Below are positions 4,335 to 22,823 of a stretch of DNA of 61,033 nucleotides, in pieces. The stretch's first letter is position 1, and every line of letters starts with the position of its first letter. The stretch covers positions 1 to 61,033 of the forward strand of contig JAHBZS010000027.1 of assembly GCA_019635285.1 (NCBI GenBank). Reading direction: 5' to 3'. Both the position numbers and the translations under genes were made by a program. Below the pieces are notes generated by a model that saw only the letters and a program-made list of their open reading frames with translations, was not told the origin of the DNA and made no database searches. This DNA comes from Rubrivivax sp. GTDB taxonomy: Bacteria; Pseudomonadota; Gammaproteobacteria; Burkholderiales; Burkholderiaceae_C.

Positions 4335-4350
4335 TTAAACAGACAGTGAA
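4335..4350. promoter_or_regulatory. TetR-1 operator, copy 1 (autoregulation)
   Basis: TTAAAC-AGAC-AGTGAA, a 6+4+6 inverted repeat with 3 of 12 half-site mismatches to TTCACC/GGTGAA. It lies 10 bp before the TetR-1 start and about 40 bp upstream of the -10 box of the divergent ThDP-enzyme gene, so it could serve both. Confidence 0.5.
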
Positions 4351-4360
4351 TCATTCGCCG

Positions 4361-5011
4361 ATGGCCAGAGCCTCCGCCAAGACCTCCGAAACCCGCCCGC
4401 GCAACGCCGACCGCTCGCAGAAGGACATCCTGGACGCGGCGCTGGCCGAGTTCGCCGACTACGGCCTGGGCGGCGCGCGCATGGACCGCATCGCCGAGCG
4501 CGCCGGCGTCAACAAGCGGCTCATCTACTACTACTTCGAGAGCAAGGAAAGCCTGTTCCTGGCGGTGCTGGAGCGCGCCTACGAAGGCATCCGCAGCGAG
4601 GAGCAGGCGCTGAACCTGACGCAGGTGGAGCCGGTGGAGGCGATCCGCCGGCTCATCGCCTTCACCTGGAACTACTACATCGCGCACCCGGAGTTCCTGA
4701 CGCTGCTGAACAGCGAGAACCTGCACCGCGCGCGGCACCTCAAGCAGTCCACCAAGATCTCGGCGATGCATTCGCCGCTGGTGCAGACGCTGGCCGACGT
4801 GCTGGAGCGCGGCCACAAGGGCGGCATCTTCCGCGCCGGCGTCGACCCGGTGCAGCTGTACATCTCGATCGCCGGGCTGTCGTACTTCTACCTGGGCAAC
4901 AGCCACACCTTGTCGACCATCTTCGACCGGCCGCTGCTGGGGCCCAAGGCCAAGCTGGAGCGGCTGTCGCACATGACCGACCTGGTGCTCGGCTACCTGG
5001 TGCGCGACTGA
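4361..5011 (+). CDS. TetR-family transcriptional regulator (TetR-1)
   Basis: 216 aa. The N-terminal TetR helix-turn-helix (about residues 20-65) includes MDRIAERAGVNKRLIYYYFESKE. An all-helical ligand and dimerisation domain follows. It is clearly paralogous to the TetR at 12245-12922: both share an LLNSEN-HR segment, a LADVL/IADVL segment and a similar C-terminus. The ATG at 4361 was chosen because it starts right after the operator-like palindrome. An in-frame upstream ATG would place that palindrome inside the gene. It is divergent from the ThDP enzyme and followed by tctC. I infer that it represses the units carrying TTCACC-N4-GGTGAA; its ligand is unknown. Confidence 0.9.
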   Translation: MARASAKTSETRPRNADRSQKDILDAALAEFADYGLGGARMDRIAERAGVNKRLIYYYFESKESLFLAVLERAYEGIRSEEQALNLTQVEPVEAIRRLIAFTWNYYIAHPEFLTLLNSENLHRARHLKQSTKISAMHSPLVQTLADVLERGHKGGIFRAGVDPVQLYISIAGLSYFYLGNSHTLSTIFDRPLLGPKAKLERLSHMTDLVLGYLVRD

Positions 5012-5044
5012 GCAGCTGCGAATCCGTCTGAGTAGTCTCCCCGG

Positions 5045-5089
5045 TTGCCGGGCGTGCCCGGTCGCGCTTAGGATTCACCATCCAGTGAA
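5045..5089 (+). promoter_or_regulatory. tctC promoter with TetR-1 operator, copy 2
   Basis: A weak -35 TTGCCG (5045-5050) and -10 TAGGAT (5069-5074) with an 18-bp spacer are followed at once by TTCACC-ATCC-AGTGAA (5074-5089). This is the best but one match to the consensus, with one half-site mismatch. The operator would sit over the transcription start, as expected for a repressor. GGAGGAG and the tctC ATG follow 18 bp later. Confidence 0.6.
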
Positions 5090-5107
5090 CTATCGGAGGA
5101 GACGCGC

Positions 5108-6097
5108 ATGAACAAGGTCCTGTCGACCACGCTGCTGGCCGCCGCCTGCCTGGCCCCTGCCCTGGCCCAGGCGCAATGGAAGCCGACCAAGCCGGTGACC
5201 ATCATCGTGCCCTGGGCGGCCGGCGGCGCCACCGACCAGGTGACGCGCCTGGCCGCGTCGGAGCTGGAGACGGGCCTGGGCCAGAAGATCGTCATCGTCA
5301 ACCAGCCCGGCGGCGCCGGCTCCATCGGCACCAAGGCGGCGATGGACGCGCCGAAGGACGGCTACACCTGGACCGCCGGCGCGGCCAAGCAGCTGGGCAC
5401 CTACCCGGTGCTGGGCATGATCAACAGCAAGGTCGACGACTTCAACCTGTACCTGGCAGTGACCAACGTGTCCATCGTCAGCGTCAACCCGAATTCGCCG
5501 TACCAGACCTTCCCGCAGCTGCTGGAGGCGATGAAGAACAAGCAGGTGTCCGTGGCCACGGCCGGCAACAGCTCGTCGGGCCACTTCGCCATGGAGGCCA
5601 TCGCCAAGGCCACCGGCGCCAAGTACCGCCACGTCACCTACGACGGCGGCAACCCGGCGGTGGTGTCCACGGTGGCCGGCGAAACCGAAGTCACCACGCA
5701 GCTGGCACCCGAGCAGGCCGAGATGATCAAGGCCAAGCGCCTGCGCCCGCTGGCGGTGGTGGCCGACCAGCCGCTGACCATCGAAGGCTTCGGCACCATT
5801 CCGGCGATCACCGACTTCGTCAAGGACTTCCCCAAGGTGACCACCGGCTTCGGCATCTTCATCCCCAAGGGCGTGCCGCCCGAGGTGGTGGCCACGGTGG
5901 ACAAGCTCTGGGCCGAGAAGGTCGCCACGTCGGAGAAGCTGAAGAAGTACGCCGCCGAAAAGGGCGCGCTGTTCACGCCGCTGTACGGCAAGGCGGCCTA
6001 CGACGCGGTGTGGCCGACGGTGGTGACCGACGCCTACCTGCTGCAGGACGCCGGGCTGGCCAAGGTCTCGCCCGAGTCGCTGGGCATCAAACGCTAG
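5108..6097 (+). CDS. tctC: Bug/TctC-family periplasmic solute receptor
   Basis: 329 aa with a Sec signal peptide ending near ALAQAQ (residues 1-23). It then shows the typical Bug receptor start, KPVTIIVPWAAGGATDQVTR, the PGGAGSIG loop, and the usual length of about 320 aa. It would bind a carboxylate-bearing substrate in the periplasm and hand it to TctA/TctB. It has a strong GGAGGAGA ribosome site. It heads tctC-tctB-tctA plus an isomerase-like gene and carries a TetR-1 operator in its promoter. The specificity cannot be read from sequence. Confidence 0.95.
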   Translation: MNKVLSTTLLAAACLAPALAQAQWKPTKPVTIIVPWAAGGATDQVTRLAASELETGLGQKIVIVNQPGGAGSIGTKAAMDAPKDGYTWTAGAAKQLGTYPVLGMINSKVDDFNLYLAVTNVSIVSVNPNSPYQTFPQLLEAMKNKQVSVATAGNSSSGHFAMEAIAKATGAKYRHVTYDGGNPAVVSTVAGETEVTTQLAPEQAEMIKAKRLRPLAVVADQPLTIEGFGTIPAITDFVKDFPKVTTGFGIFIPKGVPPEVVATVDKLWAEKVATSEKLKKYAAEKGALFTPLYGKAAYDAVWPTVVTDAYLLQDAGLAKVSPESLGIKR

Positions 6098-6137: not shown

Positions 6138-6620
6138 ATGCAACGCCAAGACTTGCTCGGCGCCGGCGTGTTCGCCGCCGTCGGCACGGCGATCCTGGTG
6201 GCGTCGCTGCGCATGGACCGGCTCAGCGACCGCGCCATCGAGGTCTGGTCCGCGCCGGGGCTGACGCCGGGCGTGGTGGGCGCGCTGATGATCGTGCTGT
6301 CGCTGGTGCTGGGCGCGCAGGCGCTGCGTGCGCCGGCCCAGGCCGACGAAGACGGCGCCGCCCCCGGCGGCTGGCGGCGCACCGCCCTGGCGCTGCTGCT
6401 GTGCGTGCTCTTCGCCGGCATCACGCTGGGCCACGGCACGCCCTTCATCGTCGAAGGCGCAGTCTTCATCTTCGTCTTCACCACGCTGTTCAGCTGGACC
6501 GAATGGCGTGCCACCGGGCGCGTGGCGCGCGGCCTGGCGCAGACCTTGGCCGTGGCGGTGTGCGCGTCGGCCTTCATCTCGTGGCTCTTCGAGTCGGTGT
6601 TCCTGGTGCGCCTGCCCTGA
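6138..6620 (+). CDS. tctB: TctB-family small membrane subunit
   Basis: 160 aa with four predicted hydrophobic segments (about residues 5-22, 45-62, 83-105 and 130-155). This is the size and topology of the small permease subunit of tripartite tricarboxylate transporters. Sequence is poorly conserved in this family, so the call rests on topology and on its place between tctC and tctA. It ends one base before tctA starts. A central hydrophilic stretch (QADEDGAAPGG) separates the two helix pairs. Confidence 0.88.
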   Translation: MQRQDLLGAGVFAAVGTAILVASLRMDRLSDRAIEVWSAPGLTPGVVGALMIVLSLVLGAQALRAPAQADEDGAAPGGWRRTALALLLCVLFAGITLGHGTPFIVEGAVFIFVFTTLFSWTEWRATGRVARGLAQTLAVAVCASAFISWLFESVFLVRLP

Positions 6621-6621
6621 T

Positions 6622-8118
6622 ATGGACGGATTGAGTCACCTGGGCACGGCCCTGGCCGCGCTGGCCGGCCCCTGGCAGATCGCCTACGCGCTGGGCGCCA
6701 CCCTGGCGGGCATCATCATCGGCCTGCTGCCGGGGCTGTCGGCGACCTTGGGCGTGGCGCTGTTCACCACGCTGACGCTGAAGATGCAGCCCACCGACGC
6801 CATCCTGGTGCTGGTATGCGTCTACGTGGGCGCCATCTACGGCGGCAGCCGCACCGCCATCCTGCTCAACATCCCCGGCACCGCAGCCAACGCCGCCGCC
6901 TGCCTGGACGGCAACATGCTGGCGCGCCAGGGCCAGGCCGGCCGCGCCATGGGCATCGCCACCACCGGCTCGGTGGCCGGGTCGCTGTTCGGCGTGGTCT
7001 GCCTGGCGATGTTCACGCCGCTGCTGGCCGAGACGGCGCTGAAGTTCGGCGCCTTCGAATTCTTCTGGCTGGGCATGGTCGGCGTGATGATGTCCGGCAG
7101 CCTGACCGGCGCCAACCCGATCAAGGGCTGGCTGATGGGGCTGCTGGGCATCTTTGTGGCCAACATCGGGCTGGACCCGATCCACGCGCACCCGCGCTTC
7201 ACCTTCGACAGCAACGCCATGAGCGGCGGCATCGGCCTGATCCCCGCGCTGGTGGGCGCCTTCGGCTTCGCCGAGATCCTGACGGTGATGAGCCAGCCCA
7301 AGCTCAAGGCCATGGCCAATTCGGTGGACTCGGTGCTGCCCAAGATCATGGACGTGCTGCGCTACTGGCGCACCATCCTCCGCTCGGGCTTGATCGGCGT
7401 GTTCGTCGGCATCCTGCCCGGCGTGGGCGAGGACATGGCCGCGTGGTCGTCCTATGCCGCGGCCAAGCGCGCCAGCAAAGAGCGCGAGCAGTTCGGCAAA
7501 GGCTCGGTCGATGGGCTGATCGCCGCCGAGACCGGCGACAACGCCGCCATCCCCGGTGCGCTGATTCCGGCGCTGGCGCTGGGCATTCCGGGCTCGGCGC
7601 CGGCCGCGGTGCTGATGGCGGCGATGATCATCCACGGCGCGCAGCCCGGCCCGATGCTCATGGTCAACCAGCCGCAGTTCATCTACGACGTGGTCGGCAT
7701 CACGCTGGTGTCCACGCTGGCCATGCTGGTCTTCGGCCTGTTGCTGGTGCGGCCCATCCTGTGGGTGCTGCGCGTGCCGCGCGAGATCATCATGCCCATC
7801 GTCTTCGTGCTGTGCGTGCTGGGCTCGTACTCCATCACGCAGCGGCTGTTCGACGTGTGGGTGATGCTGGGCGTGGGCGTCGGCTGCTTCTGGCTGCGCC
7901 AGCGCGGCTTCCCGGTGGCACCCTTCGTGCTGGGCCTGGTGCTGGGCGACATCGTCGACAAGTCGCTGCGCCGCGGCCTGGTGCTGTCCGACGGCAGCCT
8001 GCTGCCCTTCTTCACACGGCCCATCAGCGCGCTGCTGGCGCTGCTGGTGCTGGCCATGCTGGTGGCTCAGGTGCCGGCGCTGCGGCGCTGGTTCACGCCC
8101 AGAAGGAAGCCCAAATGA
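6622..8118 (+). CDS. tctA: TctA-family large membrane subunit
   Basis: 498 aa, very hydrophobic with about 11-12 membrane segments. It contains the family signatures GLLPGLSATLG near the N-terminus and GILPGVGEDMA around residue 258. This is the channel-forming subunit that takes substrate from TctC using an ion gradient. The start at 6622 follows the tctB stop by one base. An upstream in-frame extension would overlap tctB and has no family match. Its stop overlaps the next gene (ATGA), which indicates translational coupling. Confidence 0.95.
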   Translation: MDGLSHLGTALAALAGPWQIAYALGATLAGIIIGLLPGLSATLGVALFTTLTLKMQPTDAILVLVCVYVGAIYGGSRTAILLNIPGTAANAAACLDGNMLARQGQAGRAMGIATTGSVAGSLFGVVCLAMFTPLLAETALKFGAFEFFWLGMVGVMMSGSLTGANPIKGWLMGLLGIFVANIGLDPIHAHPRFTFDSNAMSGGIGLIPALVGAFGFAEILTVMSQPKLKAMANSVDSVLPKIMDVLRYWRTILRSGLIGVFVGILPGVGEDMAAWSSYAAAKRASKEREQFGKGSVDGLIAAETGDNAAIPGALIPALALGIPGSAPAAVLMAAMIIHGAQPGPMLMVNQPQFIYDVVGITLVSTLAMLVFGLLLVRPILWVLRVPREIIMPIVFVLCVLGSYSITQRLFDVWVMLGVGVGCFWLRQRGFPVAPFVLGLVLGDIVDKSLRRGLVLSDGSLLPFFTRPISALLALLVLAMLVAQVPALRRWFTPRRKPK

Positions 8119-9008
8119 ACGACCGGCTGGCGCTGTGCAACGAGGTGCTGGCGCCGTGGAGCTTTGCCGAGCAATGCACCTATGCCGCCAAGCTGGGCTA
8201 CCGCGCGCTGGAGGTGGCGCCCTTCACGCTGGCCGAAGACCCGCTGCGCATCACCGACGCGCAGGCCGCCGCCTGGGCCGCCATCGCACGCGACCACGGG
8301 CTGGCGATCAGCGGGCTGCATTGGCTGCTGGTCGCGCCCAAAGGCCTGTCGATCAGCCACCCCGACGCGGCGGTGCGCCAGCGCAGCGATGCGGCCATCG
8401 CGCGGCTGGTGGAGCTGTGCGCACAGTTGGGCGGCCGCTACCTGGTGCACGGCTCGCCGGCGCAGCGCAACCCACAGCCCGGGCAGAGCACGGCCGACGC
8501 GCTGGCGCGCGCCACCGAGGCCTGGGTCAAGGCCGGTGAACACGCCGGCCGCCTGGGCCTGCACTATTGCATCGAGCCACTGTCGCGCGAGCAGACGTCG
8601 GTGCTGAACACCGTGGACGAAGCGCTGGCCATCGTCGACGCCGCGCGCCTGCCAGGCTTGAAGACGATGCTCGACACCAGCTCCGCCGGCGCCACCGAGG
8701 CCGAGCCGCTGCCGGCGCTGATCGACCGCGTGTGGCCCGGCGGCGGTCTGGTGCACGTGCAGCTGAACGACCGCAACCGCCGCGGGCCGGGCCAGGGCAC
8801 CGACCGCTTTGCGCCGGTGCTGGCCGCGCTGCAGCGCCAGGGCTACGGCGGCTGGCTGGCGATGGAGCCTTTCGACTACGTGCCCGACGGGCCGGGCTGC
8901 GCGGCCTGGGCTATCGGCTATGTGCGTGGGCTGCTGGAGAACATGCCCGCACTCGCCGCTCAGGCTGACTCGCGATCGAACGCAAGCGGCGGTTCGAATC
9001 AGCGCTGA
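8115..9008 (+). CDS. sugar phosphate isomerase/epimerase-like TIM barrel (AP-endonuclease 2 fold)
   Basis: 297 aa. It matches the xylose-isomerase-like/EndoIV-like barrel family: SGLHWLL, a metal-ligand type Glu in YCIEPLS, LDTSSAG, VHVQLND and a C-terminal AMEPFDY. Members are hydroxypyruvate isomerases, tagatose epimerases, IolE/IolI-type enzymes and 3-keto-glycoside lyases. Its ATG overlaps the tctA stop by 4 nt, so import and this step are co-expressed. The extreme C-terminus (SNASGGSNQR) overlaps the convergent HepT gene by 10 bp. The reaction is unknown. Confidence 0.88.
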   Translation: MNDRLALCNEVLAPWSFAEQCTYAAKLGYRALEVAPFTLAEDPLRITDAQAAAWAAIARDHGLAISGLHWLLVAPKGLSISHPDAAVRQRSDAAIARLVELCAQLGGRYLVHGSPAQRNPQPGQSTADALARATEAWVKAGEHAGRLGLHYCIEPLSREQTSVLNTVDEALAIVDAARLPGLKTMLDTSSAGATEAEPLPALIDRVWPGGGLVHVQLNDRNRRGPGQGTDRFAPVLAALQRQGYGGWLAMEPFDYVPDGPGCAAWAIGYVRGLLENMPALAAQADSRSNASGGSNQR

Positions 9009-10400: not shown

Positions 10401-11435
10401 TCAGAAGCGGCCGGCGCGCACTTCGTAGCGGGTGGGCTTGCCGATCTGCGGCATGCCGCGCTGCACCCAGTCGGCCACCCAGTCGATCAGCCGGCCCAGC
10501 GGCACGCGCGGGTAGCCAAACAGCCGCTGCGACTGCAGCGTGTTGTTCACCCAGGCGTCGGGCTGCTCCACGCCGTCGAAGCGCGGCGTCTTGCCGAAGT
10601 ACTTGCCGAACTCATGCGCCAGCAGGCGCACGCTGGCCAGTTCCGGCCCGCCGATGTTGAGCGGCGAGGTCGGCGTGCTGCAGTGCCTGAAGGTGCGCAG
10701 CATCTGCGCATTGCAGTCGCCCTGCCAGATGACGCTGGCATGTCCGGTGGCGATGGGAATGGGCTGCTCCTGCATCACCCAGTTGGCGATGTCGATGAGC
10801 ACGCCGTAACGCATGTCGATGGCATAGTTGAGCCGCATCAGCCGGCCCGGCGTGCCCCACTGGCGCGAGCCGTAGGCAAAGGCGCGCTCGCGGCCGACGC
10901 AGGAATTGGCATAGTCGCCCAGCGGGCCAGGCTCGACGCTTTCGTCCCAGCCGTGCTGCACCACCGGCGCAAACGGGTAGACGCACAGCGTGGAAAACAC
11001 CACCAGCCGCGACTCGCGAAATTCGCGCGCCACCAGCGCCGGCACATAGGTGTTCATCGCCCAGGCGAAGGACGGATCGTCGTTGGTGCCGAACTTCTTG
11101 CCGGCCATGTAGACGATGTTGCGCACCTTGGGCAACTTGGCCACGGCCACGGGGTCCAGCAGGTCGCAGCGAATGACCTCGATGCCCCAGGACTCCAACT
11201 GCTCGGCCAGCCCGGGCTCGGAGAAGCGCGCCACGCCGATGACGCGCTTGCCCGGCGCCGCGCGCTTGGCCATGCGCGCCAGCGTCGGCCCCACCTTGCC
11301 GCCCACGCCCAGCACCATGATGTCGCCGTCGACCTGCTTCAGGTCCTCCACCAGCTCAACGGTGGGCTCGGACATCAGGTCTTCGAGGTGCTCTTCGTTC
11401 TCGATGCGGTCGGGCAATGTGGCGGGGGTGCTCAT
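10401..11435 (-). CDS. NAD-dependent epimerase/dehydratase-like extended SDR, paralogue 1
   Basis: 344 aa Rossmann-fold protein with the nucleotide-binding glycine motif GVGGKVG (43-49) and the SDR core STLCVYPF. The SDR active-site segment reads Y175-ANS-C179, so the Lys of YxxxK is replaced by Cys. The paralogue at 20640-21680 has the same change. The start at 11435 (MSTPATL) is preferred to an ATG at 11450 that would abut the operator. The promoter carries the perfect CTAAGT-N4-ACTTAG repeat. It is followed by the EthD-like gene. It may bind NAD(P) without classical SDR chemistry, or use another base. The substrate is unknown. Confidence 0.85.
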   Translation of the reverse strand: MSTPATLPDRIENEEHLEDLMSEPTVELVEDLKQVDGDIMVLGVGGKVGPTLARMAKRAAPGKRVIGVARFSEPGLAEQLESWGIEVIRCDLLDPVAVAKLPKVRNIVYMAGKKFGTNDDPSFAWAMNTYVPALVAREFRESRLVVFSTLCVYPFAPVVQHGWDESVEPGPLGDYANSCVGRERAFAYGSRQWGTPGRLMRLNYAIDMRYGVLIDIANWVMQEQPIPIATGHASVIWQGDCNAQMLRTFRHCSTPTSPLNIGGPELASVRLLAHEFGKYFGKTPRFDGVEQPDAWVNNTLQSQRLFGYPRVPLGRLIDWVADWVQRGMPQIGKPTRYEVRAGRF

Positions 11436-11450
11436 CGGCTCGTCTCTCAT

Positions 11451-11466
11451 CTAAGTAATAACTTAG
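11451..11466. promoter_or_regulatory. TetR-2-type operator, copy 1
   Basis: CTAAGT-AATA-ACTTAG is a perfect 6-bp inverted repeat with a 4-bp spacer, 15 bp upstream of the epimerase-1 start. The only other copy in the window (17071-17086) differs by one spacer base, and the seven bases beyond it (TTGAATG) are also identical. On the minus strand the -10 box TAGCAT lies immediately upstream, so a bound repressor would cover the transcription start. Confidence 0.7.
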
Positions 11467-12244: not shown

Positions 12245-12922
12245 TCAGCCGGCGGCCCGCCGCAAATACCCCAGCACCACCGCCACGATGTGGTCCTCGT
12301 GCCGCTTCAGCGCCTTCGGCGTCGACAGGTTGCGGCCCAGGATGACCGACAGCGTGTACTGGTTCGACAGCAGGAAGTAGCCCATGCCGTTGAGCGAGAT
12401 GAACAGGTCCTGCGCGTCGCAGTCGCTGCGGAACACGCCCTGCTCGATGCCGCTGCGCAGCACATCGGCGATGGTGTCCAGAAGCGGGTTGTACAGCTTC
12501 TGGATGTACGGCGACTTGGCGATGTGCTTGCCGCGGTGCACGTTCTCGCTGTTCAGCAGGCCGATAATGTCGGGGCGCTTGACGAAGGTGCGGAAGGTGT
12601 TGCGCACCAGGCGCTCCATCGCCGCCAGCGGGTCCAGCCCGCGCACCTCGATGTCGCCGTGGTGGGTGCGCATCACGCCGTAGATGTGCTCCATCACGGC
12701 GATGAACATCTGCTCCTTGCTGCCGAAGTACTGGTACGCCAGGCTGACGTTGACGCCGGCGGCACCCACGATGCGCTCGATGCGCGCGCCGTCGTAGCCG
12801 CGCTCGGCAAATTCGCGCACCGCGCAGTCCAGGATGGTGGCCTTGGTGGCCGCGGCATCGCGCGGGCGCGCGCTGCGCGGCTTGCCTGCCTTCGCCTCAG
12901 GCGCGGGGAGGTTCTTCTTCAA
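12245..12922 (-). CDS. TetR-family transcriptional regulator (TetR-2)
   Basis: 225 aa, paralogue of TetR-1. The helix-turn-helix is at about residues 25-70 (IERIVGAAGVNVSLAYQYFGSKE), followed by the shared LLNSENVHRGKH and DTIADVL segments. It is the last gene of the leftward operon ATPase-enolase-permease-receptor-TetR, 69 bp after the receptor gene. That operon's promoter carries CTAAGT-N4-ACTTAG and no copy lies in front of this gene itself. TetR-2 would therefore control its own level through the operon promoter. Assigning this operator to TetR-2 is an inference from position. Confidence 0.9.
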   Translation of the reverse strand: MKKNLPAPEAKAGKPRSARPRDAAATKATILDCAVREFAERGYDGARIERIVGAAGVNVSLAYQYFGSKEQMFIAVMEHIYGVMRTHHGDIEVRGLDPLAAMERLVRNTFRTFVKRPDIIGLLNSENVHRGKHIAKSPYIQKLYNPLLDTIADVLRSGIEQGVFRSDCDAQDLFISLNGMGYFLLSNQYTLSVILGRNLSTPKALKRHEDHIVAVVLGYLRRAAG

Positions 12923-14020: not shown

Positions 14021-14842
14021 TCAGTCGGTCGTGTCCTCGCGGTGCGCCCAGGGCGCCACCACCTGCTCCACGGCGACGACCACGCCGTACAGCAGCAAGC
14101 CCATCACCGAAATCAGCAGCAGCGACGCGAAGATCGGCGCCGTCTCCATGGTCACGCCGCTGGTGATGATCAGCGAGCCCAGGCCTTTTTCGGACGCCAC
14201 GAACTCGCCGACCAGCGCGCCGATGACGCTCATGGTGGCGTTGAGCTTCAGGCCGACGAAGACGTAGGGCACGGCATGCGGGAAGCGGATCTTCTTCAGC
14301 ACCTGCCAGCGGCTGGCCTTGAGCGTGCGCACCAGGTCCAGCATTTCGGGCTCGGCGCTGGCCAGGCCCACGGCGGTGTTCACCACCATCGGGAAGAACG
14401 CGATGGTCGTGCCGATGACGATGTTGGGCCAGATGCCGTAGCCCATCCAGATGACGAACAGCGGCGCCAGCGCGATCTTGGGCAAGGTGTTGAAGAGGAT
14501 CAGCACCGGCATCACGGTGCGCAGCAGCAGGTCGTTCCAGACGATGACGATGGCCAGCAGCACGCCCAGCACGGCCGACAGCAAAAACGCGCCGAGCACC
14601 GCGTACAGCGTGGCCAGCAGGTTGGCCGTCCATTGGTAGTTGGGGTTACCCAGCGCGCGCAGCGCGGCGATGGGCGACGGCAGGATGTACTCCTTGACGC
14701 CCAGCACCATCACCGCCACCTGCCACAGCACCAGCAGCGCCAGGATGACCAGCAGGCTGGGCACGTAGTAGACCAAGGCCGCGGCGGCCCGCTCGACGAC
14801 ACCGGGGCCGTCGTCTCGGGCTGCGCCGGCGGCCGGGCTCAT
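14021..14842 (-). CDS. ABC transporter permease 1 (SsuC/TauC-like)
   Basis: 273 aa with about six membrane segments. The cytoplasmic EAA loop is visible in LVRTLKASRWQVLKKIRFPHAVPYVFVGLKL, which contacts the ATPase. An N-terminal hydrophilic tail (PAAGAARDDGPG) precedes the first helix. Its ATG overlaps the stop of the enolase-family gene by 4 nt (ATGA). It would form a homodimer, or a heterodimer with permease 2 (17146-17913), because only one ATPase gene is present. Confidence 0.93.
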   Translation of the reverse strand: MSPAAGAARDDGPGVVERAAAALVYYVPSLLVILALLVLWQVAVMVLGVKEYILPSPIAALRALGNPNYQWTANLLATLYAVLGAFLLSAVLGVLLAIVIVWNDLLLRTVMPVLILFNTLPKIALAPLFVIWMGYGIWPNIVIGTTIAFFPMVVNTAVGLASAEPEMLDLVRTLKASRWQVLKKIRFPHAVPYVFVGLKLNATMSVIGALVGEFVASEKGLGSLIITSGVTMETAPIFASLLLISVMGLLLYGVVVAVEQVVAPWAHREDTTD

Positions 14843-16263
14843 GCGTCGGCGATCGGTTGCAAGGACGGCCAGTCGGGCGCCGCGCCGCTGGCAAAGCCGG
14901 CGCCGCGGTGCAGCGAGCCGATGGCCAGTTGCCCACCCCGGATGCCCAGGCGCACTGCGCCGTGGCTGCGCTCGTACAGGTCGGGGTGCGCGTCCAGAAA
15001 GGCCTGCTGCTCCCCTGCCCCCAGCGCCGCCATGCCGTTGACGTAGTGGTGGCCGTTGCGCTCGATGTGCGTGATGCCCAGCAGCGACACCAAGGCCAGG
15101 TCCTGCTGCAGCGCCAGGCCGGCCTGGATGGTCAGGTCCTCAGCGCTCATGATGTAGCGCTCGGTGCCCGCCTCGGCATTCCACTTGGCGCAGCGCGCGC
15201 GGTTCAGGATCGACTTGTACAGGCCCTTGCAGGTCTTGGACGACACGCCCAGGTAGCCGCGCGCCTTGCCCTGCACGAAGGCGTCCAGCGAATCGTCGGA
15301 CTCGTCCAGGATCACCGGCTTCTGCGACGACAGCGCGCCCACGTCCTGCGCCAGCGCGGCGGCGCGCTTGATCGGCTGCTCGATGAAGATGACGCTGTCG
15401 CACAGGCGGCGCAGGCCGGGTTCGGCGCGCATGCGCTGCCACAGTTGCAGCGCGCCGTCGATGCTGTCGTACTGCTCGTTGCCGTCAAGTGTGCTGCGGT
15501 AGCCGCCATCGATGCGGTCCAGCACGCTGGCGATGCGCAGCAGCCGCGCCACGTCGGCGTCGACGTTGCCGGCCACCTTCAGCTTGAACCAACGGTGGCC
15601 GTAGGTGGAGACCACCTCTTCCAGCGTCTCGGGCAGGCCGTCGTTTACCGCGTCGTGCGCGTCGCTGGCGGTGATCGGGTCGACCAAGCCGACGGTGTGC
15701 CGCGCGGCAATGGCCTCGGCCGGCCGCAGCCCGGCCAGGAAGGCGTCCAGGTCGAAGCCGCGCAGGTCCGGCGTCAGCGGCGTGACCTGGATGCCCGCCA
15801 GGTTGCGGCGGATCACCTCGTGGAACGGCAGCTGCAGCGCGCGGCATAGCGCGTCGAGCACGGCGCGGTCGATCAGCGCCGGGCCATAGTTGGCCACCAG
15901 GCTATTCAGACCCTGCTGCGCGGCGCGGCCGATCTGCGCCTGGTAGTGGCGCACGAAGTGGCCGAAGGCGCTGTCGATGCCGCCGTCGGTGTACAGCCCG
16001 CGGGCGATGCGCAAGGCGTTGCGCAGCTGCTCGAAGTTGTCGTCGTTGTTTAAGCCTGGGTTCTTGTCGAACCACTTCGGCGCCATCAGCTCGGCGGCCA
16101 TGCCTTGGGCCTGGCGGCCGTCGTCCAGCCGGATGCGCGCGCGCACAAAGGCCTGCGGCGCGGCGGTGAGCGTGACCACGCCGAAGCGGAAGGGCATGCG
16201 CAGCTTGACCGGGCGCTCGAAGAGTTCGACCGCTTCGACGGAGAAGGTCGGAGCACTGCTCAT
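14839..16263 (-). CDS. enolase-superfamily enzyme (mandelate racemase/muconate cycloisomerase-like), unknown substrate
   Basis: 474 aa, longer than most members (about 370-400). The superfamily residues can be placed: KLK at 227-229 (acid/base Lys), D260 and N262 in LDGNEQYD, E295 in FIEQP, D320-E321 in ILDES and K343 in SSKTCKG. The metal site and a two-lysine active site therefore look intact. Members abstract a proton alpha to a carboxylate, giving racemisation, dehydration or cycloisomerisation. It sits between the ATPase and permease 1 with 4-nt overlaps at both ends, so it is co-translated with the importer and should act on the imported acid or its first product. Confidence 0.88.
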   Translation of the reverse strand: MSSAPTFSVEAVELFERPVKLRMPFRFGVVTLTAAPQAFVRARIRLDDGRQAQGMAAELMAPKWFDKNPGLNNDDNFEQLRNALRIARGLYTDGGIDSAFGHFVRHYQAQIGRAAQQGLNSLVANYGPALIDRAVLDALCRALQLPFHEVIRRNLAGIQVTPLTPDLRGFDLDAFLAGLRPAEAIAARHTVGLVDPITASDAHDAVNDGLPETLEEVVSTYGHRWFKLKVAGNVDADVARLLRIASVLDRIDGGYRSTLDGNEQYDSIDGALQLWQRMRAEPGLRRLCDSVIFIEQPIKRAAALAQDVGALSSQKPVILDESDDSLDAFVQGKARGYLGVSSKTCKGLYKSILNRARCAKWNAEAGTERYIMSAEDLTIQAGLALQQDLALVSLLGITHIERNGHHYVNGMAALGAGEQQAFLDAHPDLYERSHGAVRLGIRGGQLAIGSLHRGAGFASGAAPDWPSLQPIADA

Positions 16264-17027
16264 TCCATGCCCAGCAGCTTGTAGATGCGCCGCGTGTAGA
16301 CGCCGAAGGTTTCGTGCGTCTTCAGGTCCAGCGTGCGCGGGTGCGGCAGCTCGATCTGGAAGTTGTCGGCCATGCGCGCCGGGCCGGCCGTCAGCACCAC
16401 CACGCGCGTGCCCAGGAACACCGCCTCGGAAATGCCGTGCGTGACGAAGATGATGGTCTTGCCCGATTCCTTCCAGATGCGCAGCAGCTCCAGGTTCATC
16501 TTCTCGCGCGTCAGCGCGTCCAGCGCGCCGAAGGGCTCGTCCATCAGCACCAGCTTAGGGTCGTGCACCAGCGAGCGGGCGATGGCCGCGCGCTGCTGCA
16601 TGCCGCCGGACAGCTCGTACGGGTATTTGTCCTCGTAGCCCTGCAGGCCGACCATGGCCATCAGGCCGCGCGCGCGCTCGCGCGCCTCGCCCATCGGCAG
16701 GCCCAGGATCTCGGCCGGCAGCAGGATGTTGTCCAGGATGCGCCGCCACTTCAGCAGCAGCGGCGCCTGGAACACCATGCCGATGTCGCGCGACGGGTCA
16801 AAGGCGTTCTGCGCCGAGCCGATGCGCACGGTGCCGCCGTCGTAGCCGTGCAGCCCGGCCAGGATCTTCAGCAGCGTGCTCTTGCCGCAGCCCGACGGGC
16901 CGACCAGCGCCACCAGCTCGCCGGGCATGACGTCGAAGCTGGCGTCGCTGATGGCCAGATGCTGCTTGCGCCCCGCCTTGTAGGTCTTGGTGACGCCGGA
17001 CAGATGGATGAAGGGTTCGACCGTCAT
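16260..17027 (-). CDS. ABC transporter ATPase (SsuB/TauB-like)
   Basis: 255 aa. Walker A GPSGCGKST (43-51), Q-loop VFQAP (about 84), signature LSGGMQQ (138-144) and Walker B LVLMDEP (158-164) are followed by a switch His in VTHGISEA. It is the only ATPase gene among the ABC components of the island and so must serve both permeases. It is the first gene of the TetR-2 operon; the operator lies 43 bp upstream of the start. No good ribosome site precedes the ATG at 17027, and an overlapping ATG a few bases upstream exists in another frame. Confidence 0.94.
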   Translation of the reverse strand: MTVEPFIHLSGVTKTYKAGRKQHLAISDASFDVMPGELVALVGPSGCGKSTLLKILAGLHGYDGGTVRIGSAQNAFDPSRDIGMVFQAPLLLKWRRILDNILLPAEILGLPMGEARERARGLMAMVGLQGYEDKYPYELSGGMQQRAAIARSLVHDPKLVLMDEPFGALDALTREKMNLELLRIWKESGKTIIFVTHGISEAVFLGTRVVVLTAGPARMADNFQIELPHPRTLDLKTHETFGVYTRRIYKLLGME

Positions 17028-17070: not shown

Positions 17071-17086
17071 CTAAGTAATGACTTAG
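17071..17086. promoter_or_regulatory. TetR-2-type operator, copy 2
   Basis: CTAAGT-AATG-ACTTAG is a perfect inverted repeat located just downstream of the minus-strand -10 box TACATT (17097-17092). It controls the ATPase-enolase-permease-receptor-TetR operon and therefore the regulator itself. Confidence 0.7.
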
Positions 17087-17145: not shown

Positions 17146-17913
17146 TCACGAGACCCGGGCGTCCTTCGGCACCAGCCAGAGCTCGAGCAGCAGCACCAGC
17201 CCATACAGCAGCATGCCCAGCAGCGTGATCAGGATCACCGCCATGAACATCGCCGGTGTGTCCAGGGTCACCTGCACCTGCAGCATCAGGTAGCCCAGGC
17301 CGCGGTCGGAGCCGAGGAATTCGCCGACCACGGCGCCGGCCACCGCCAGGATGGCCGCCACCTTCATGCCGGCAAAGACGTAAGGCAAGGCGCCGGGCAA
17401 CTGGATCTTGGTGAACAGCTGCCAGCGCGAGCCCTTCAGCGAACGCACCAGGTCCAGCAGGTCGGGCTCGACCTCGCGCAGACCACGCGCCGTGGTCAGC
17501 AGGATCGGGAACACGGCGATCGAGAACGCCATCATCGCGTTGGGGAAGACGCCGTACTTGAACCAGACGATGATCAGCGGCCCCAGCGCCACCTTGGGGA
17601 TCATGTTCAGGGTCACCAGCAGCGGCAGCACCAGCGCTTCCAGCGTCTTCGACCAGGTGAACAGCAGCGCCAGCAGCACGCCCACGCCCAGCGCCAGCGC
17701 ATAGCCGCCGAAGATCTCGGTCGCCGTGACCAGGGTGTTGGCCCACCAGTCGTAGTTGGGCACGAACAGCGCATGCAGCGTGTCGCCCGGCGACGGCATG
17801 ACGAACTTGGGCACGTCGCCCAGCCGCACGAACAGGTACCAGGCCAGCAGCAGCAGCAGGTGCGCCAGCACGCCCAGCGCGTACTGCTTGAGTTTGTTGT
17901 CGGAATGGTCCAT
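17146..17913 (-). CDS. ABC transporter permease 2 (SsuC/TauC-like)
   Basis: 255 aa with about six membrane segments. The EAA loop is in LVRSLKGSRWQLFTKIQLPGALPYVFAGMKV. It is similar throughout to permease 1 and is probably a duplicate of it. It lies 12 bp downstream of the DapA-like gene and belongs to a different transcription unit from the ATPase, with its own promoter near 19.0 kb and a different regulator family of operators. No ATPase of its own is present. Confidence 0.93.
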   Translation of the reverse strand: MDHSDNKLKQYALGVLAHLLLLLAWYLFVRLGDVPKFVMPSPGDTLHALFVPNYDWWANTLVTATEIFGGYALALGVGVLLALLFTWSKTLEALVLPLLVTLNMIPKVALGPLIIVWFKYGVFPNAMMAFSIAVFPILLTTARGLREVEPDLLDLVRSLKGSRWQLFTKIQLPGALPYVFAGMKVAAILAVAGAVVGEFLGSDRGLGYLMLQVQVTLDTPAMFMAVILITLLGMLLYGLVLLLELWLVPKDARVS

Positions 17914-17925: not shown

Positions 17926-18987
17926 TCAGTCCAGCCAGCGCGCGAGGTTCTGCGCGACGAAGGCATCGTCGGACAGGTCGGCATGTTCACGGCAGACGCG
18001 GTCGATCTCGGCCGCCTGGCCGGGCGACAGCGTCTCGTCGGGGTCCAGGCACCAGATGCCTTGCAGCAGCCCCTGCCGGCGCAGCACCTCGTGGCAGCCG
18101 GGGATGCAGCCGGCAAAGCCGTGGGCCACGTCGAAGAAGGCGCTGTTGCAGTCGGTGACGCGCGAGTCCAGCGCCAGCAGATCGGCATCGATGCGGCCCG
18201 ATTCGATGGCGGCGTGGATGCGCTGCAGCTGCTCGACGGCGGCTTTAGTCCACACGCTCCAGTGGCCGAGCAGCCCGCCGCGGATGCGCAGCCGCAGCGT
18301 CTCGTCGCCGCGCGTCACGTCGAAGGGCTGCAGCAGGTCGAGCACGATGTGGTCGTCGTTGCCGGTGTACAGCGTGACGCGGTCTTCGGCACGCGCGGCG
18401 GCGACGCCGCGGATGACGTCCAGCGTGCGGTAGCGGTCGAAGGGCGCCATCTTGATGGCGATGACGTTGTCGATGGCGGCGAAGCGCTGCCAGAACTCGG
18501 CCGGCAACGCGATGCCACCCACGGCGGTCTGCAGATAGAAACCCACCAGCGGGATGTGCTCGGCCACCGCCGCGCAGTGCGCCACCAGCGCGTCTACCGA
18601 CGCGCCCTTCATCGCCGCCAGCGACAGCATGCCGGCGTGGTAGCCCAGGCCGCGTGCGGTGTCGGCCTCGGCACAGGCCTGCGCGGTGGGCCCGGCGAGC
18701 CCAGCAATCATCACCAACGGGCGCTGCGTCCAGTCGCGCGCGCTGCGCATGGCCATCTCCAGCACCGGCTGGTACAGGCCGACCTCCCGTATGGCGAACT
18801 GCGTGGAATGCACGCCCACCGCCAGCCCGCCGGCGCCGGCATCGACGTAGTAGCGCGTCAGCGCACGCTGGCGCACCGGGTCCAGGCGGCGCGAGGCGTC
18901 CAGCGCCAGCGGATGCGCGGGGATGACGGTGCCGCGTCGCAGCGAAGCGAGAACGTCCTGGGGCAAGTCAGACCAGTGCTTGGGCAT
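17926..18987 (-). CDS. dihydrodipicolinate synthase/N-acetylneuraminate lyase-like TIM barrel
   Basis: 353 aa, longer than the typical 290-310 aa, with a C-terminal extension rich in acidic residues and Cys. The Schiff-base Lys is placed at K179 in NVIAIKMAPFDR, and a Tyr at 151 in GFYLQTAVGG fits the catalytic Tyr. Members cleave or form C-C bonds of 2-oxo acids, or dehydrate sugar acids. It is divergent from the receptor-2 gene and followed by permease 2. The operator in the shared 135-bp gap may control both directions. Confidence 0.85.
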   Translation of the reverse strand: MPKHWSDLPQDVLASLRRGTVIPAHPLALDASRRLDPVRQRALTRYYVDAGAGGLAVGVHSTQFAIREVGLYQPVLEMAMRSARDWTQRPLVMIAGLAGPTAQACAEADTARGLGYHAGMLSLAAMKGASVDALVAHCAAVAEHIPLVGFYLQTAVGGIALPAEFWQRFAAIDNVIAIKMAPFDRYRTLDVIRGVAAARAEDRVTLYTGNDDHIVLDLLQPFDVTRGDETLRLRIRGGLLGHWSVWTKAAVEQLQRIHAAIESGRIDADLLALDSRVTDCNSAFFDVAHGFAGCIPGCHEVLRRQGLLQGIWCLDPDETLSPGQAAEIDRVCREHADLSDDAFVAQNLARWLD

Positions 18988-19064: not shown

Positions 19065-19080
19065 ATCACCGGTTGGTGAA
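19065..19080. promoter_or_regulatory. TetR-1 operator, copy 3
   Basis: ATCACC-GGTT-GGTGAA, with one half-site mismatch to the consensus. It lies between the divergent DapA-like and receptor-2 genes. A TTGACT -35 (19053-19058) precedes it on the plus strand, so the operator would cover the spacer and -10 region of the receptor-2 promoter. A TATAGA box for the leftward direction lies close by. Confidence 0.6.
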
Positions 19081-19122
19081 TTTACTTCAACCCTTGCCCG
19101 CATGGCAACAGGAGAGACGCTC

Positions 19123-20115
19123 ATGGTCAAGCACTTCGTCATCGGCGCCGTCGTCGCGGCCGCCAGCCTCGTGTCGCTGTCGGCACACGCCCAGCAGAAG
19201 GTCGACTTCGTGCTCAACTGGGTACCGGGCGGCGACCACGCGCCCTACTACTACGCCAAGAAGATGGGCTGGTACCAGCAGGCCGGCATCGACTTGAACA
19301 TCGAGCCCGGCAAAGGCTCGGCGCTGGCCACGCAGCGCGTCGGCGCGGGCGCCACGCCCATCGGCCTGGCCGACATGGCCGGCGTGCTGGTCGCCAAGGG
19401 CAAGGGCGCCGACACGGTGGCGGTGTTCAACGTCTACGCCAACTCGCCGCAGGGCATGTACTGGCTGAAGAGCTCGGGCATCAAGGGCGTGAAAGACTTC
19501 CCCGGCAAGAAGATCGGCAACCCCGCGGCCGACGGCGCGCGCGTGATGTGGCCGGCGCTGGCCAAGGCCAACGGCATCGACCCGAAGTCGGTGACCTGGG
19601 TGAACATCGACGCCAACGGCAAGCTGGCGGCGCTGAAGGCCAAGTCGATCGACGTGACCACGTCGTTCTACAACATCCACCACATCTTCCAGCGCGAACT
19701 GGGCGACGACATGGGCTTCCTGGCCTGGCGCGACGCGGGGCTCAACCCCTACGGCAACTCGATCATCGTCAACGCCAAGTACTTGGCCGAAAACAAGCCG
19801 CTGGTGGACAAGTTCGTCAAAGTGACGCAGCGTGCCTTCGCGGCCTGCGCCAAGGACCCCAAGCCCTGCGTGCAGGCGCTGATCGACGCCAACGGCGCGC
19901 TGAAGTTCGACAACGAGATGGACAACTGGGCGCTGGTCGAGGTGCTGATGAGCGACAAGTACTCGCGCGAAGTGGCCCTGGGCATCCACGACGACGGCCG
20001 CATGGCCGCAGACTACGAACTGGTGCGCGAGTACATCGGCCTGGACAAGCCCTTCGACGTGAAGACGGTCTACACCAACGAGTTCCTGGATCGTTCGGTG
20101 AAGATGCCGAAGTAG
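19123..20115 (+). CDS. ABC transporter periplasmic substrate-binding protein (NMT1/SsuA-like), receptor 2
   Basis: 330 aa with a signal peptide (GAVVAAASLVSLSAHAQ), then VDFVLNWVPGGDHAPYYYAKKMG, the family start. The ATG at 19123 was chosen over 19102 because GGAGAG lies six bases upstream. It is a homologue of receptor 1 with a different binding cleft sequence. It is transcribed away from the DapA-like and permease-2 genes and shares their operator. It is followed by the palindromic repeat element at 20.2-20.6 kb, not by another gene of its strand. Confidence 0.93.
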   Translation: MVKHFVIGAVVAAASLVSLSAHAQQKVDFVLNWVPGGDHAPYYYAKKMGWYQQAGIDLNIEPGKGSALATQRVGAGATPIGLADMAGVLVAKGKGADTVAVFNVYANSPQGMYWLKSSGIKGVKDFPGKKIGNPAADGARVMWPALAKANGIDPKSVTWVNIDANGKLAALKAKSIDVTTSFYNIHHIFQRELGDDMGFLAWRDAGLNPYGNSIIVNAKYLAENKPLVDKFVKVTQRAFAACAKDPKPCVQALIDANGALKFDNEMDNWALVEVLMSDKYSREVALGIHDDGRMAADYELVREYIGLDKPFDVKTVYTNEFLDRSVKMPK

Positions 20116-20557: not shown

Positions 20558-20639
20558 CTCGCGCAGACCTCAGAAGTCAGTGACCCAAGGACAGCAAAGC
20601 GCCGCAAACAGCCTGTCGCTACGGCCGATGCGATCGAGG

Positions 20640-21680
20640 TCAGTACTTGCCGTCGCGCGTGGAGAAGTGCGTGGGCTTGCCCAGGCTCGGACCGCCGCGG
20701 GACACCCAGTCGGCCACCCAGTCGATCATCGTCGCCAGCGGCACGCGGGGCTCGCCGAACAGCGCCTGCGCCTGCGTGGTGTCTTCCAGCCAGGCGGTGG
20801 GCGCCTCCTGCCCGACCAGCACCGGCGTCTTGCCGAAGCGCCGGCCGAACTCACCGGCCAGCCAGCGCACGCTGGTGTGGCGCGGCCCGGTGATGTTGAT
20901 CGGCGTGGCCGGCGTCGTGCAATGCGCCAGCAGCCGCAGCGACTGCTCGTTGGCATCGCCCTGCCAGATGACGTCGGCATGGCCCATCGTCAGATCCAGC
21001 GGCCGGCCGGCGAAGACCGCGCTGGCCACGTCGTAGAGCACGCCGTAGCGCATGTCGATGGCATAGGACAGCCGCACCAGGCGCCCGGGCGTGCCCCAGG
21101 TGCGCGAGCCGTACTCGAACATGCGCTCGCGGCCGACACAGGAATTGGCGTAGTCGCCGGCCGGCGGCGTGGCCGGCACGGTCTCGGCGGCACCGGGCCC
21201 GTCCACCGGCACGAAGGGGTACACGCAGGCGGTGGAGAAGGCCACGATGCGTGTCTCGCGGAACACGTCGGCCACCGTCATCGGCACGCCCACGTTCATC
21301 ATCCAGGTCAGCGACGCGTTGTCGGCGGCGCCGAACTTGTGGCCGGCCATGAACACCACGTTGCGCACGCCGTCGCGCACGTTGGGCAGCTTGAGCACCG
21401 CCTCGCGGTCCAGCAGGTCGCAGCCGATGCATTCCACGCCCTGCGCCTGCAGCGACGCCCGCGCCCGCGCGTCGCTGAAGCGCGCCACGCCGATGACGCG
21501 CTTGCCCGGCGCGGCGCGCTTGGCCATGCGCGCCAGCGTCGGCCCCATCTTGCCGCCGACACCGATGACCATGATGTCGCCGTCCACCTTCGCCAGGTCG
21601 GCCACCAGCCCCGGCGTGGGCTCGCTCATGAAGTCTTCCAGCGCGTCGACGTCGGCGAAGCGTTGCGGCAGCGCGCTCAC
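20640..21680 (-). CDS. NAD-dependent epimerase/dehydratase-like extended SDR, paralogue 2
   Basis: 346 aa, clearly homologous over its full length to the protein at 10401-11435. It has GVGGKMG at about 40-46 and an active-site segment Y177-ANS-C181 in which the SDR Lys is again Cys. It starts with GTG at 21680; the GTGA overlaps the stop of the MetE-like gene by 4 nt. The N-terminus (ALEDFMSEPTPGLV) aligns with that of paralogue 1, which supports this start. It is under the TetR-1-type operator, whereas paralogue 1 is under the TetR-2-type operator. Confidence 0.86.
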   Translation of the reverse strand: MSALPQRFADVDALEDFMSEPTPGLVADLAKVDGDIMVIGVGGKMGPTLARMAKRAAPGKRVIGVARFSDARARASLQAQGVECIGCDLLDREAVLKLPNVRDGVRNVVFMAGHKFGAADNASLTWMMNVGVPMTVADVFRETRIVAFSTACVYPFVPVDGPGAAETVPATPPAGDYANSCVGRERMFEYGSRTWGTPGRLVRLSYAIDMRYGVLYDVASAVFAGRPLDLTMGHADVIWQGDANEQSLRLLAHCTTPATPINITGPRHTSVRWLAGEFGRRFGKTPVLVGQEAPTAWLEDTTQAQALFGEPRVPLATMIDWVADWVSRGGPSLGKPTHFSTRDGKY

Positions 21681-22681
21681 GATGCGATCCCCTCGAAGCG
21701 GTCGCGGCCCAGCGCCAGCGCGCGCATCTTGGCGTCGGCGATCGAGCGCTTGAGCATCCAGAAGCCGCAGTCCGGGTGGATGTAGCGCACGCGCCCTGCC
21801 CCCAGCACCTTCTCGGCGCGCTCGATGGCGCGGGCCACCTGGTCGGCGCTTTCCACGTCGGTGGCCTTGATGTCGACCACGCCCAGGCCGAAGCCGATCT
21901 CGGGCTTCAGGTCCTTGAAGGCGGCCAGTTCCTCGGGTGGGCGGTGGGCGCATTCCATGACGATGTGGTCGACGTGCAGCGCGTTCAGGTAATTCATCAG
22001 CCGGTCCCAGGTGCCCTTCTGCACCGTCTGGCCGCCGTAGTTGCCGAAGCACAGGTGCACCGCCGGTGTGCCGGGCACGGCGTCGAGCACACGGTTCATC
22101 GACGACGCCGCCCATTCCCACTCCTCGGGGTGGCCCGGCAGGTTGGCCTCGTCGATCTGCACGATGTCGGCGTTCAGATGCTTCACCTGCGCGGCCAGCG
22201 CGTCGGCGATGGCATGCGCCACCTGCGACACGCCGCCGTAATGCCGGTCGATCAGCGTCTTGGCCAGCATGTGCGGGCCGGTCAGCGTGAACTTGAAGGT
22301 CTTCGTCGCCAGCGCCTTGGCACGCGCGCAGGCCAGCGGCAGGTCCAGGCTGCCGTGGCCGATGGGCCCGACCACCGTGCCCGGCGGCCGCGTGCGGAAC
22401 TTCATGCCGCTGCTGGAGCGGTAGGCGATCAGGTCGTCGAAGGAAAAACGCTGCGTGATGCCGTCCATCGGCCGCACGAAGTACTCGATCATGCCGTTGG
22501 TTTCGGGGTGGTTGATGTCGAAGCGGTAGAGCTCGCCGTCGCACACCACGTCGACGCCGCACTGCTCCTGCGTGTCGATGACCACGCGTGTGGCGTCGAT
22601 CAGCGCCTGCTCCGAGGGGTTGGCCACCAGCCAGTCGGGGACCGGGTACGAGCCGACGACGGTGGTCTGGATTCTGGGCAT
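21677..22681 (-). CDS. stand-alone MetE-type (cobalamin-independent methionine synthase C-terminal family) zinc protein
   Basis: 334 aa, only the catalytic barrel of MetE without the N-terminal half. The zinc ligands are all placed: H209 and C211 in VHLCFG, E243 in MECAH and C305 in HPDCGFW. It also has the homocysteine-side QIDEA (about 176-180). Such short proteins transfer methyl groups from folates, corrinoids or other donors; in catabolic clusters some act on methylated substrates. The start at 22681 follows the operator and promoter by 16 bp. It heads a two-gene operon with epimerase 2. Whether homocysteine is the acceptor is unknown. Confidence 0.88.
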   Translation of the reverse strand: MPRIQTTVVGSYPVPDWLVANPSEQALIDATRVVIDTQEQCGVDVVCDGELYRFDINHPETNGMIEYFVRPMDGITQRFSFDDLIAYRSSSGMKFRTRPPGTVVGPIGHGSLDLPLACARAKALATKTFKFTLTGPHMLAKTLIDRHYGGVSQVAHAIADALAAQVKHLNADIVQIDEANLPGHPEEWEWAASSMNRVLDAVPGTPAVHLCFGNYGGQTVQKGTWDRLMNYLNALHVDHIVMECAHRPPEELAAFKDLKPEIGFGLGVVDIKATDVESADQVARAIERAEKVLGAGRVRYIHPDCGFWMLKRSIADAKMRALALGRDRFEGIAS

Positions 22682-22697
22682 GCGCTGCTCCGCTGTG

Positions 22698-22747
22698 TTA
22701 ACCATCTGGTGATGAACCATGCTAGCCAGCGGGGGCGCGACCGTCAA
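22698..22747 (-). promoter_or_regulatory. promoter of the MetE-like operon with TetR-1 operator, copy 4
   Basis: Read on the minus strand: -35 TTGACG (22747-22742), a 17-bp spacer, -10 TAGCAT (22724-22719), then the operator at 22713-22698. On the plus strand the operator reads TTAACC-ATCT-GGTGAT, with two half-site mismatches. The start codon follows 16 bp later. The layout mirrors the divergent promoter at 22776-22823. Confidence 0.65.
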
Positions 22748-22775
22748 TGCCGGGGAGTTCCTACCCTGCAGTGCC

Positions 22776-22823
22776 TTGACTGCAGGCCCGTGGGCGCCGT
22801 ACATTAATTCACCATCTGGATAT
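22776..22823 (+). promoter_or_regulatory. promoter of the hydroxylase operon with TetR-1 operator, copy 5
   Basis: -35 TTGACT (22776-22781), an 18-bp spacer, -10 TACATT (22800-22805), then TTCACC-ATCT-GGATAT (22808-22823). The left half-site is perfect and the right is degenerate, with three mismatches. The start codon is 15 bp downstream. Confidence 0.62.

Follow-up and report, generated by a model that had tools for sequence, protein, structure and literature searches.

A predicted TetR_C_29 repressor regulon interleaved with a probable second TetR-family circuit in a gene cluster of Rubrivivax sp.

The gene cluster and its five sites

The window analysed here is a contig of 61,033 nucleotides from Rubrivivax sp. 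(JAHBZS010000027.1 of assembly GCA_019635285.1; 69% GC), and our subject is a gene cluster in it where five copies of a 16-bp imperfect palindrome, spread over 18 kb, accompany the gene of a TetR-family protein, TetR-1 (4361..5011, plus strand). The cluster also holds a paralog, TetR-2 (12245..12922, minus strand), which is 42% identical to TetR-1 by own-genome search. In Pfam comparisons both proteins match TetR_N (63.3 bits for TetR-1 and 52.8 bits for TetR-2, cut-off 24), which places them in the family, and the ligand/dimerisation domain TetR_C_29 (151.7 and 130.1 bits, cut-off 26.2). PF17938 is named once in PMC11358695. For both TetR-1 and TetR-2, judging from sequence only, a palindrome overlaps a promoter near the regulator's own gene.

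An earlier sequence-only reading had joined the five sites into one TetR-1 circuit of six transcription units. Operator 1 (4335..4350; all sites are given without strand) lies in the divergent promoter region between TetR-1 and a ThDP enzyme of the PRK08199 subfamily (2558..4267, minus strand; Pfam, with an NCBIfam match above cut-off). Operator 2 (5074..5089) is in the promoter of the plus-strand genes for the TctC receptor (5108..6097), TctB (6138..6620), TctA (6619..8118) and a xylose-isomerase-like TIM barrel, Iso1 (8118..9008). Operator 3 (19065..19080) separates the NMT1/THI5-like receptor 2 (19102..20115, plus strand) from a divergent DapA-like gene (17926..18987, minus strand; DHDPS match weak but above cut-off), which is followed by ABC permease 2 (17146..17913, minus strand; BPD_transp_1). 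Operator 4 (22698..22713) precedes the minus-strand genes for a MetE-like protein (21677..22681; Meth_synt_2) and epimerase 2 (20640..21683; Epimerase), and operator 5 (22808..22823) precedes the plus-strand genes for a PhyH-type dioxygenase, the hydroxylase of the earlier reading (22839..23582), a Gfo/Idh/MocA oxidoreductase (23593..24756), a DUF993 protein (24759..25973) and an isomerase-like TIM barrel, Iso2 (26005..26865). These gene assignments come from Pfam. With two operators between divergent genes, the count of six units is better given as seven probable units on five operators, namely ThDP; TetR-1; TctCBA-Iso1; receptor 2; DapA-permease 2; MetE-epimerase 2; and PhyH-Gfo-DUF993-Iso2, the operon boundaries being presumed ones.

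The five 16-mers are present letter for letter at 4335, 5074, 19065, 22698 and 22808, and both their 6+4+6 layout and their mismatches (3, 1, 1, 2 and 3 of 12) proved correct on recount. The nearest predicted starts (TetR-1 4361, TctC 5108, receptor 2 19102, MetE-like 22681 and PhyH 22839) are 10-21 bp away from the sites, within the range of 10-42 bp given before; the value of 42 bp is obtained if receptor 2 starts at 19123 instead.

Ranking, conservation and targets of the TetR-1 sites

A symmetric 24-bp matrix was built from 62 distinct sites in 71 relatives' loci upstream of TetR-1 orthologs, with the window and its nearest loci (L055 and L056) excluded. Of all positions in the window, the five sites take the top five places with this matrix, with scores of 27.6 (4335), 26.7 (5074), 25.7 (22808), 23.5 (19065) and, weakest of the five, 17.5 (22698). 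The next scores, 11.7 and 11.6, both fall on copies of another palindrome, CTAAGT-N4-ACTTAG, and in 40 simulated windows no position reached 17.5. A sequence-only profile of 39 aligned rows of relatives' sites was also run over the whole 4.9-Mb genome, with 150 of 444 candidates scored. At E <= 10 it returned five matches, every one in this cluster among the candidates scored, and together they cover all sites but 22698: 19065 with the best value (E 0.08) and on both strands, 5074 (E 0.31), 22808 (E 1.47) and 4335 (E 1.57).

The recurrence of the sites in relatives links them to TetR-1. The first relatives came from a search of 250 genomes of the same family, own genome included, in which PhyH was found in 11/250 (E <= 1e-40) and receptor 2 in 7/250 (E <= 1e-60). 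Much of the gene set recurs in the wider regions of these relatives, a TetR-1 ortholog lies in or beside most of them, and sites of the form aaTTCACCA-NN-TGGTGAAtt precede TetR-1, PhyH, MetE, receptor 2/DapA and TctC in various regions. For a larger sample, nine aligned TetR-1-type proteins were used to scan genome contigs from GTDB, and the best 80 of 378 TetR-1 loci were taken; to qualify, a candidate had to carry either of two peptide patterns, of which one lies in the recognition helix. In the 150 bp before the aligned start of TetR-1, 60 of the 80 loci have a site with at most two mismatches and 73 have one with at most three; the reversed pattern gave 0/80 and 5/80, and shuffled sequence 0.2 and 3.1. 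A word search free of any consensus returned TTAA-N8-TGAA as the commonest gapped word (44/80 upstream regions, against 6-8 for the top word in 10 shuffles), and this word has the same 16-bp frame as the operator read earlier. Across the 2451 of 2628 sequence pairs whose 50-bp flanks are <40% identical, arm identity is 0.79 and flank identity 0.26, where the former is raised by picking the best match within 150 bp and the latter lowered by the choice of pairs. Since the arms are alike while the flanks are unalike, the operator looks to have been kept by selection rather than by recent descent. Relatives carry TetR-1 within the cluster or next to it, in many cases divergent from ThDP, and the regulon was found in Comamonadaceae and Sphaerotilaceae.

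Two more distant clusters (L053 of genome G215 and L054 of G122) encode a TetR about 45% identical to TetR-1, with another palindrome-like sequence, ACCAACTGTTTGGT, before its gene, a hint that operators may diverge along with paralogs. The best operator match near these TetR genes has 4/14 mismatches.

For the target genes, relatives' upstream regions were scored with the same matrix at a threshold of >=15, after removal of upstream stretches shorter than 100 bp and, for seven gene types, of hits below 50% identity. The threshold was reached upstream of TctC in 19/21, receptor 2 in 12/14, DapA in 9/11, MetE in 6/11, PhyH in 7/16, ThDP in 48/69, Gfo in 6/69 and permease 2 in 1/15; as L037 and L038 belong to the same contig, a PhyH and a Gfo each enter these counts twice. 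Shuffled copies of the upstream regions never reached the threshold, and neither did nine operon-internal gene types (ATPb 0/29, Epim2 0/10, Enol 0/10, Perm1 0/4, NMT1a 0/4, Iso2 0/55, Iso1 0/23, TctA 0/22 and DUF993 0/63, the windows of the last being approximate, as the query was a translation of 24755-26008 in another frame than the correct one of 24759-25973 and its hits mark the place only). ThDP is divergent from and <400 bp from TetR-1 in 50 of 65 ThDP hits; because it adjoins TetR-1, the ThDP count is to a large extent made up of the training sites again and is not independent. Receptor 2 and DapA mostly have one site in common. Hence, the independent evidence for predicted targets is that of TctC, MetE, PhyH and receptor 2/DapA. 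The list of target units and the assignment to TetR-1, as first proposed, are supported by the recurrence of the site upstream of TetR-1 orthologs and of the same targets.

Several observations weigh against a TetR-1 regulon at these five sites. Searched as TTMACCNNNNGGTGAA with at most two mismatches, the bare core gives 146/148 matches in the 4.9-Mb genome and the reversed control 157/166, which is chance level. The core of site 4335 is poor, the own-genome profile search, with its 150 of 444 candidates scored, missed site 22698, and the individual E-values of that search are weak (0.08 to 1.6). The training sites of the matrix were chosen as best match to the earlier consensus (<=3 mismatches), which makes it neither blind nor fully independent. 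Among relatives, seven of the 80 TetR-1 orthologs have no site with at most three mismatches within 150 bp upstream, and 9/16 PhyH, 5/11 MetE and 21/69 ThDP upstream regions score below 15; part of the misses at target genes arises because some relatives lack the genes, place them inside operons or differ in operon order.

The chance-level count of the bare core would suit a view of all five sites as random hits of a loose consensus within a GC-rich window, and so would the 24 window positions that match TTCACC-N4-GGTGAA with at most three mismatches (about 13 are expected from first-order Markov simulation, weak evidence alone). Four places in the genome, of which the window has two, match the core at one mismatch or fewer; the reversed control has 3. 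However, the relatives' matrix puts exactly these five sites on top, none of the simulated windows equals them, and their positions are conserved across genera with unalignable flanks, so that chance is a scarcely credible explanation. A similar frequency of the motif genome-wide had been named beforehand as evidence against the regulon; the bare consensus does behave in this way, whereas the matches of the trained profile, among the 150 of 444 candidates scored, are confined to the cluster.

The positions of the sites relative to predicted promoters, taken from consensus matches only, bear on the direction of regulation. Upstream of PhyH, TTGACT-18-TACATT ends 2 bp before the operator at 22808, and for MetE the operator at 22698 begins 5 bp after TTGACG-17-TAGCAT. 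The TctC operator overlaps the end of TTGCCG-18-TAGGAT, and for receptor 2 there are several readings, of which TTGACT-17-GTGAAT puts the operator between the boxes. Consensus matching found no good promoter for ThDP or TetR-1 within the window. Among the relatives' upstream regions, GACT-N3-TTAA and TTGA-N5-TTAA occur in 32/80 each, i.e. TTGACT three bases before TTAAC. An operator after the -10 box or in the -35/-10 spacer fits repression. Some TetR-family proteins activate, AtrA being named as an activator in PMC3511530, and TetR-1 might do so at all or some of its promoters. This is very improbable, since a protein bound at or downstream of the predicted -10, or between -35 and -10, should block; moreover, the divergent ThDP gene is 93 bp away, and in PMC3511530 the five tested TetR-family proteins <200 bp from a divergent neighbour were repressors.

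A second palindrome and TetR-2

The middle of the cluster carries a different palindrome system, which the sequence-only reading overlooked. Exact copies of CTAAGT-N4-ACTTAG form probable TetR-2 operator a (11451..11466; CTAAGTAATAACTTAG), which abuts the start of epimerase 1 (10401..11450, minus strand; NAD_binding_10 match below the Pfam cut-off), and probable operator b (17071..17086; CTAAGTAATGACTTAG), which lies 43 bp before an ABC ATPase gene (16260..17027; Pfam ABC_tran). Operator b heads the TetR-2 operon, a minus-strand unit of this ATPase, an enolase-superfamily-like protein (14839..16263; Pfam MR_MLE_C just above cut-off), ABC permease 1 (14021..14842; Pfam BPD_transp_1), the NMT1/THI5-like receptor 1 (12992..14005; Pfam) and, as the last gene, TetR-2; epimerase 1 and the genes from ATPase to receptor 1 are probable TetR-2 targets. 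At one mismatch or fewer the palindrome occurs at these two places only in the own genome, and a third place has two mismatches. Epimerase 2 of the TetR-1 set shares about 62% identity with the epimerase-1 copies of relatives.

In other genomes the palindrome tracks with TetR-2. In G786, from which locus L055 comes and whose TetR-2 is 91% identical, both corresponding promoters carry it. In G192, with a TetR-2 of 64% identity, a two-mismatch form heads the string epimerase 1-unknown-TetR-2-ATPase-enolase-permease 1-receptor 1, where 0.05 would be expected in those 20 kb. Only L055 among the 80 relatives' loci has a TetR-2 ortholog (>=55% identity), and the palindrome at two mismatches or fewer is in L055 alone. 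Whole-genome searches of six genomes, which left out G192, found no palindrome at one mismatch or fewer; the best TetR-2 match there is 40-43% identical in G090, G199, G107, G046 and G787, and G101 has none at E <= 1e-30. Ortholog searches returned 1 of 399 order-wide, the window itself, and 2 of 399 family-wide, the window and G192. From these comparisons TetR-2 likely pairs with CTAAGT-N4-ACTTAG; it speaks against this pairing that the genomes behind it are three, two of them close, and that the G192 site has two mismatches.

A Paracoccus plasmid TetR, 47% identical, was considered as a further TetR-2 case and rejected: its gene set is different, the one perfect palindrome with 6-bp arms in the intergenic stretch inspected has another sequence, and its 18.7-kb region holds no CTAAGT match at three mismatches or fewer. 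A third exact copy of the palindrome in G786 (L171, position 327) stands before an integrase-like gene, recognised by eye, near a contig end; we suggest that it is chance or unrelated.

Binding of the five sites by TetR-2, or by both paralogs, instead of TetR-1 alone would agree with the presence of a related protein in the same cluster, and site 19065 is at the head of a gene string that ends in TetR-2. We consider this unlikely, as the sites are kept in relatives although just one of 80 stretches has a TetR-2 ortholog, and six genomes searched whole have no TetR-2 match above 43% identity. The recognition helices also differ, reading N[VI]SL[AL]YQYF in 3/3 TetR-2 proteins and NKRL[IL]YYYF in 79/80 TetR-1 proteins (these 80 were gathered partly by that motif), and TetR-2 has its separate palindrome. 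A 22-row tree unites the three TetR-2 rows in one starred group, separate from the TetR-1 rows; the group of the latter is not well supported (81/46) and includes a paralog on a long branch, and the program cautions about long branches. With TetR-1 kept as the regulator of the five sites, the TetR-1 part of the single circuit first proposed stands, and the cluster as a whole probably contains two interleaved circuits.

The second palindrome also changes how the ABC genes may be controlled. In relatives the ATPase gene follows permease 2 at -4 to 77 bp in 16/18 rows and at 150 and 325 bp in the other two, these 18 rows counting two genomes twice. In the window the gap is 118 bp and contains the TetR-2 palindrome, and tblastn (E <= 1e-3) found no second ATPase copy in the window, only the gene itself. 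Because the TetR-2 promoter cuts off the ATPase and the window has a single copy, permease 2/receptor 2 and permease 1/receptor 1 would have to share one ATPase under joint control, expressed perhaps both from its own TetR-2 promoter and by read-through from that of DapA. On this view the TetR-1 regulon would be the older one, to which TetR-2 and its near-identical promoter pair were added as a regulatory cassette. We lean slightly towards this composite picture, in which two TetR_C_29 paralogs with non-overlapping operators split the cluster, the two transporters share a jointly controlled ATPase, and the TetR-2 cassette came later.

Upstream of both TetR-2 palindromes there is also GGGAAAACCC (minus strand; 11503-11512 and 17122-17131), and it also stands near the palindrome in L055. 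Both promoters further have a TA....TCAACTAAGT stretch in common, as if copied. GGGAAAACCC is perhaps a further regulator's site or a part of the duplicated promoter. Elsewhere in the cluster, a PIN-domain protein (11543-11929) between epimerase 1 and TetR-2 adjoins a small antitoxin-like gene recognised by eye, a possible toxin-antitoxin pair inside a catabolic cluster. Pfam gave no hit for 9725-10387, for which 'EthD' is only our own label. Between the convergent receptor-2 and epimerase-2 genes, 20177-20613 holds an inverted repeat of 160 nt, 84% complementary and 117 nt apart, together with two shorter nested inverted repeats with arms of 33 and 28 nt.

Proposed regulation and comparison with known systems

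The sites, their conservation, their link to TetR-1 orthologs and their restriction to the cluster, the last within the reach of the genome scan, were computed directly. In accordance with them, we regard it as very probable that TetR-1 is an autoregulated TetR_C_29 repressor over seven units, interleaved with the TetR-2 circuit. A TetR-1 dimer would bind the 16-bp imperfect palindrome with the core TTMACC-N4-GGTKAA, preferably within AATTMACC-N4-GGTKAATT, and the five operators would cover the promoters of all units from ThDP through PhyH-Gfo-DUF993-Iso2. Placed just after the predicted -10 (MetE and PhyH), over the promoter end (TctC) or in the -35/-10 spacer (receptor 2 in one reading, and TetR-1 of many relatives), the bound protein would block RNA polymerase, and a pathway substrate or intermediate may release it, switching on uptake and breakdown genes together. 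TetR-2, for its part, would repress epimerase 1 and its own operon through CTAAGT-N4-ACTTAG. The enzyme set (an inositol-dehydrogenase-like Gfo and an IolO-like isomerase, both assignments below cut-off, with a ThDP enzyme) suggests breakdown of a small polar compound by oxidation, isomerisation and C-C cleavage, and the Tct and ABC (NMT1/THI5-like) systems suggest its uptake.

Our results give a testable operator and target list for the TetR_C_29 subfamily, and tie enzymes without an assigned role, including the DUF993 protein, into one regulon. The identity of the inducer would point to the pathway substrate. Moreover, the operators of TetR-1 and TetR-2 offer a natural example of related repressors that keep separate sites within one cluster. 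Among the literature matches listed, judged from titles and abstract starts, there was no paper on the TetR-1 regulon, and 'DUF993' as a word was found in no paper of the literature searched.

The best sequence match of TetR-1 among solved structures is PDB 3npi (E 2.4e-25), a TetR-family protein for which the depositors name the family only and operator information was not found. Another relative among solved structures is E. coli RutR (best E 3.7e-13). The RutR consensus is TTGACCA-NN-TGGTCAA, which, if right, is set apart from TTCACCA-NN-TGGTGAA chiefly by a single base in each arm, and RutR has its own C-terminal domain, a separate Pfam family. TetR-1 resembles RutR in having an operator of about 16 bp between a catabolic gene and its own divergent gene, but it matches TetR_C_29 and has other target genes. 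According to PMC10891134, RutR binds a palindrome of about 16 bp that lies between its own gene and a divergent catabolic operon. We rejected TetR-1 as a RutR ortholog: TetR_N and TetR_C_29 were the only domains reported, and the targets are ThDP, Tct, NMT1 and PhyH genes, not pyrimidine (rut/car) genes. The arrangement likewise recalls the TetR/tetA paradigm and the '200 bp rule' of PMC3511530, with a divergent neighbour (ThDP, 93 bp), an operator between and probable autoregulation. It differs from TetR/tetA in that TetR-1 has five operators dispersed over 18 kb, and in that its targets are enzymes and importers, not an efflux pump. We find the arrangement convincing, though it belongs to a well-known kind.

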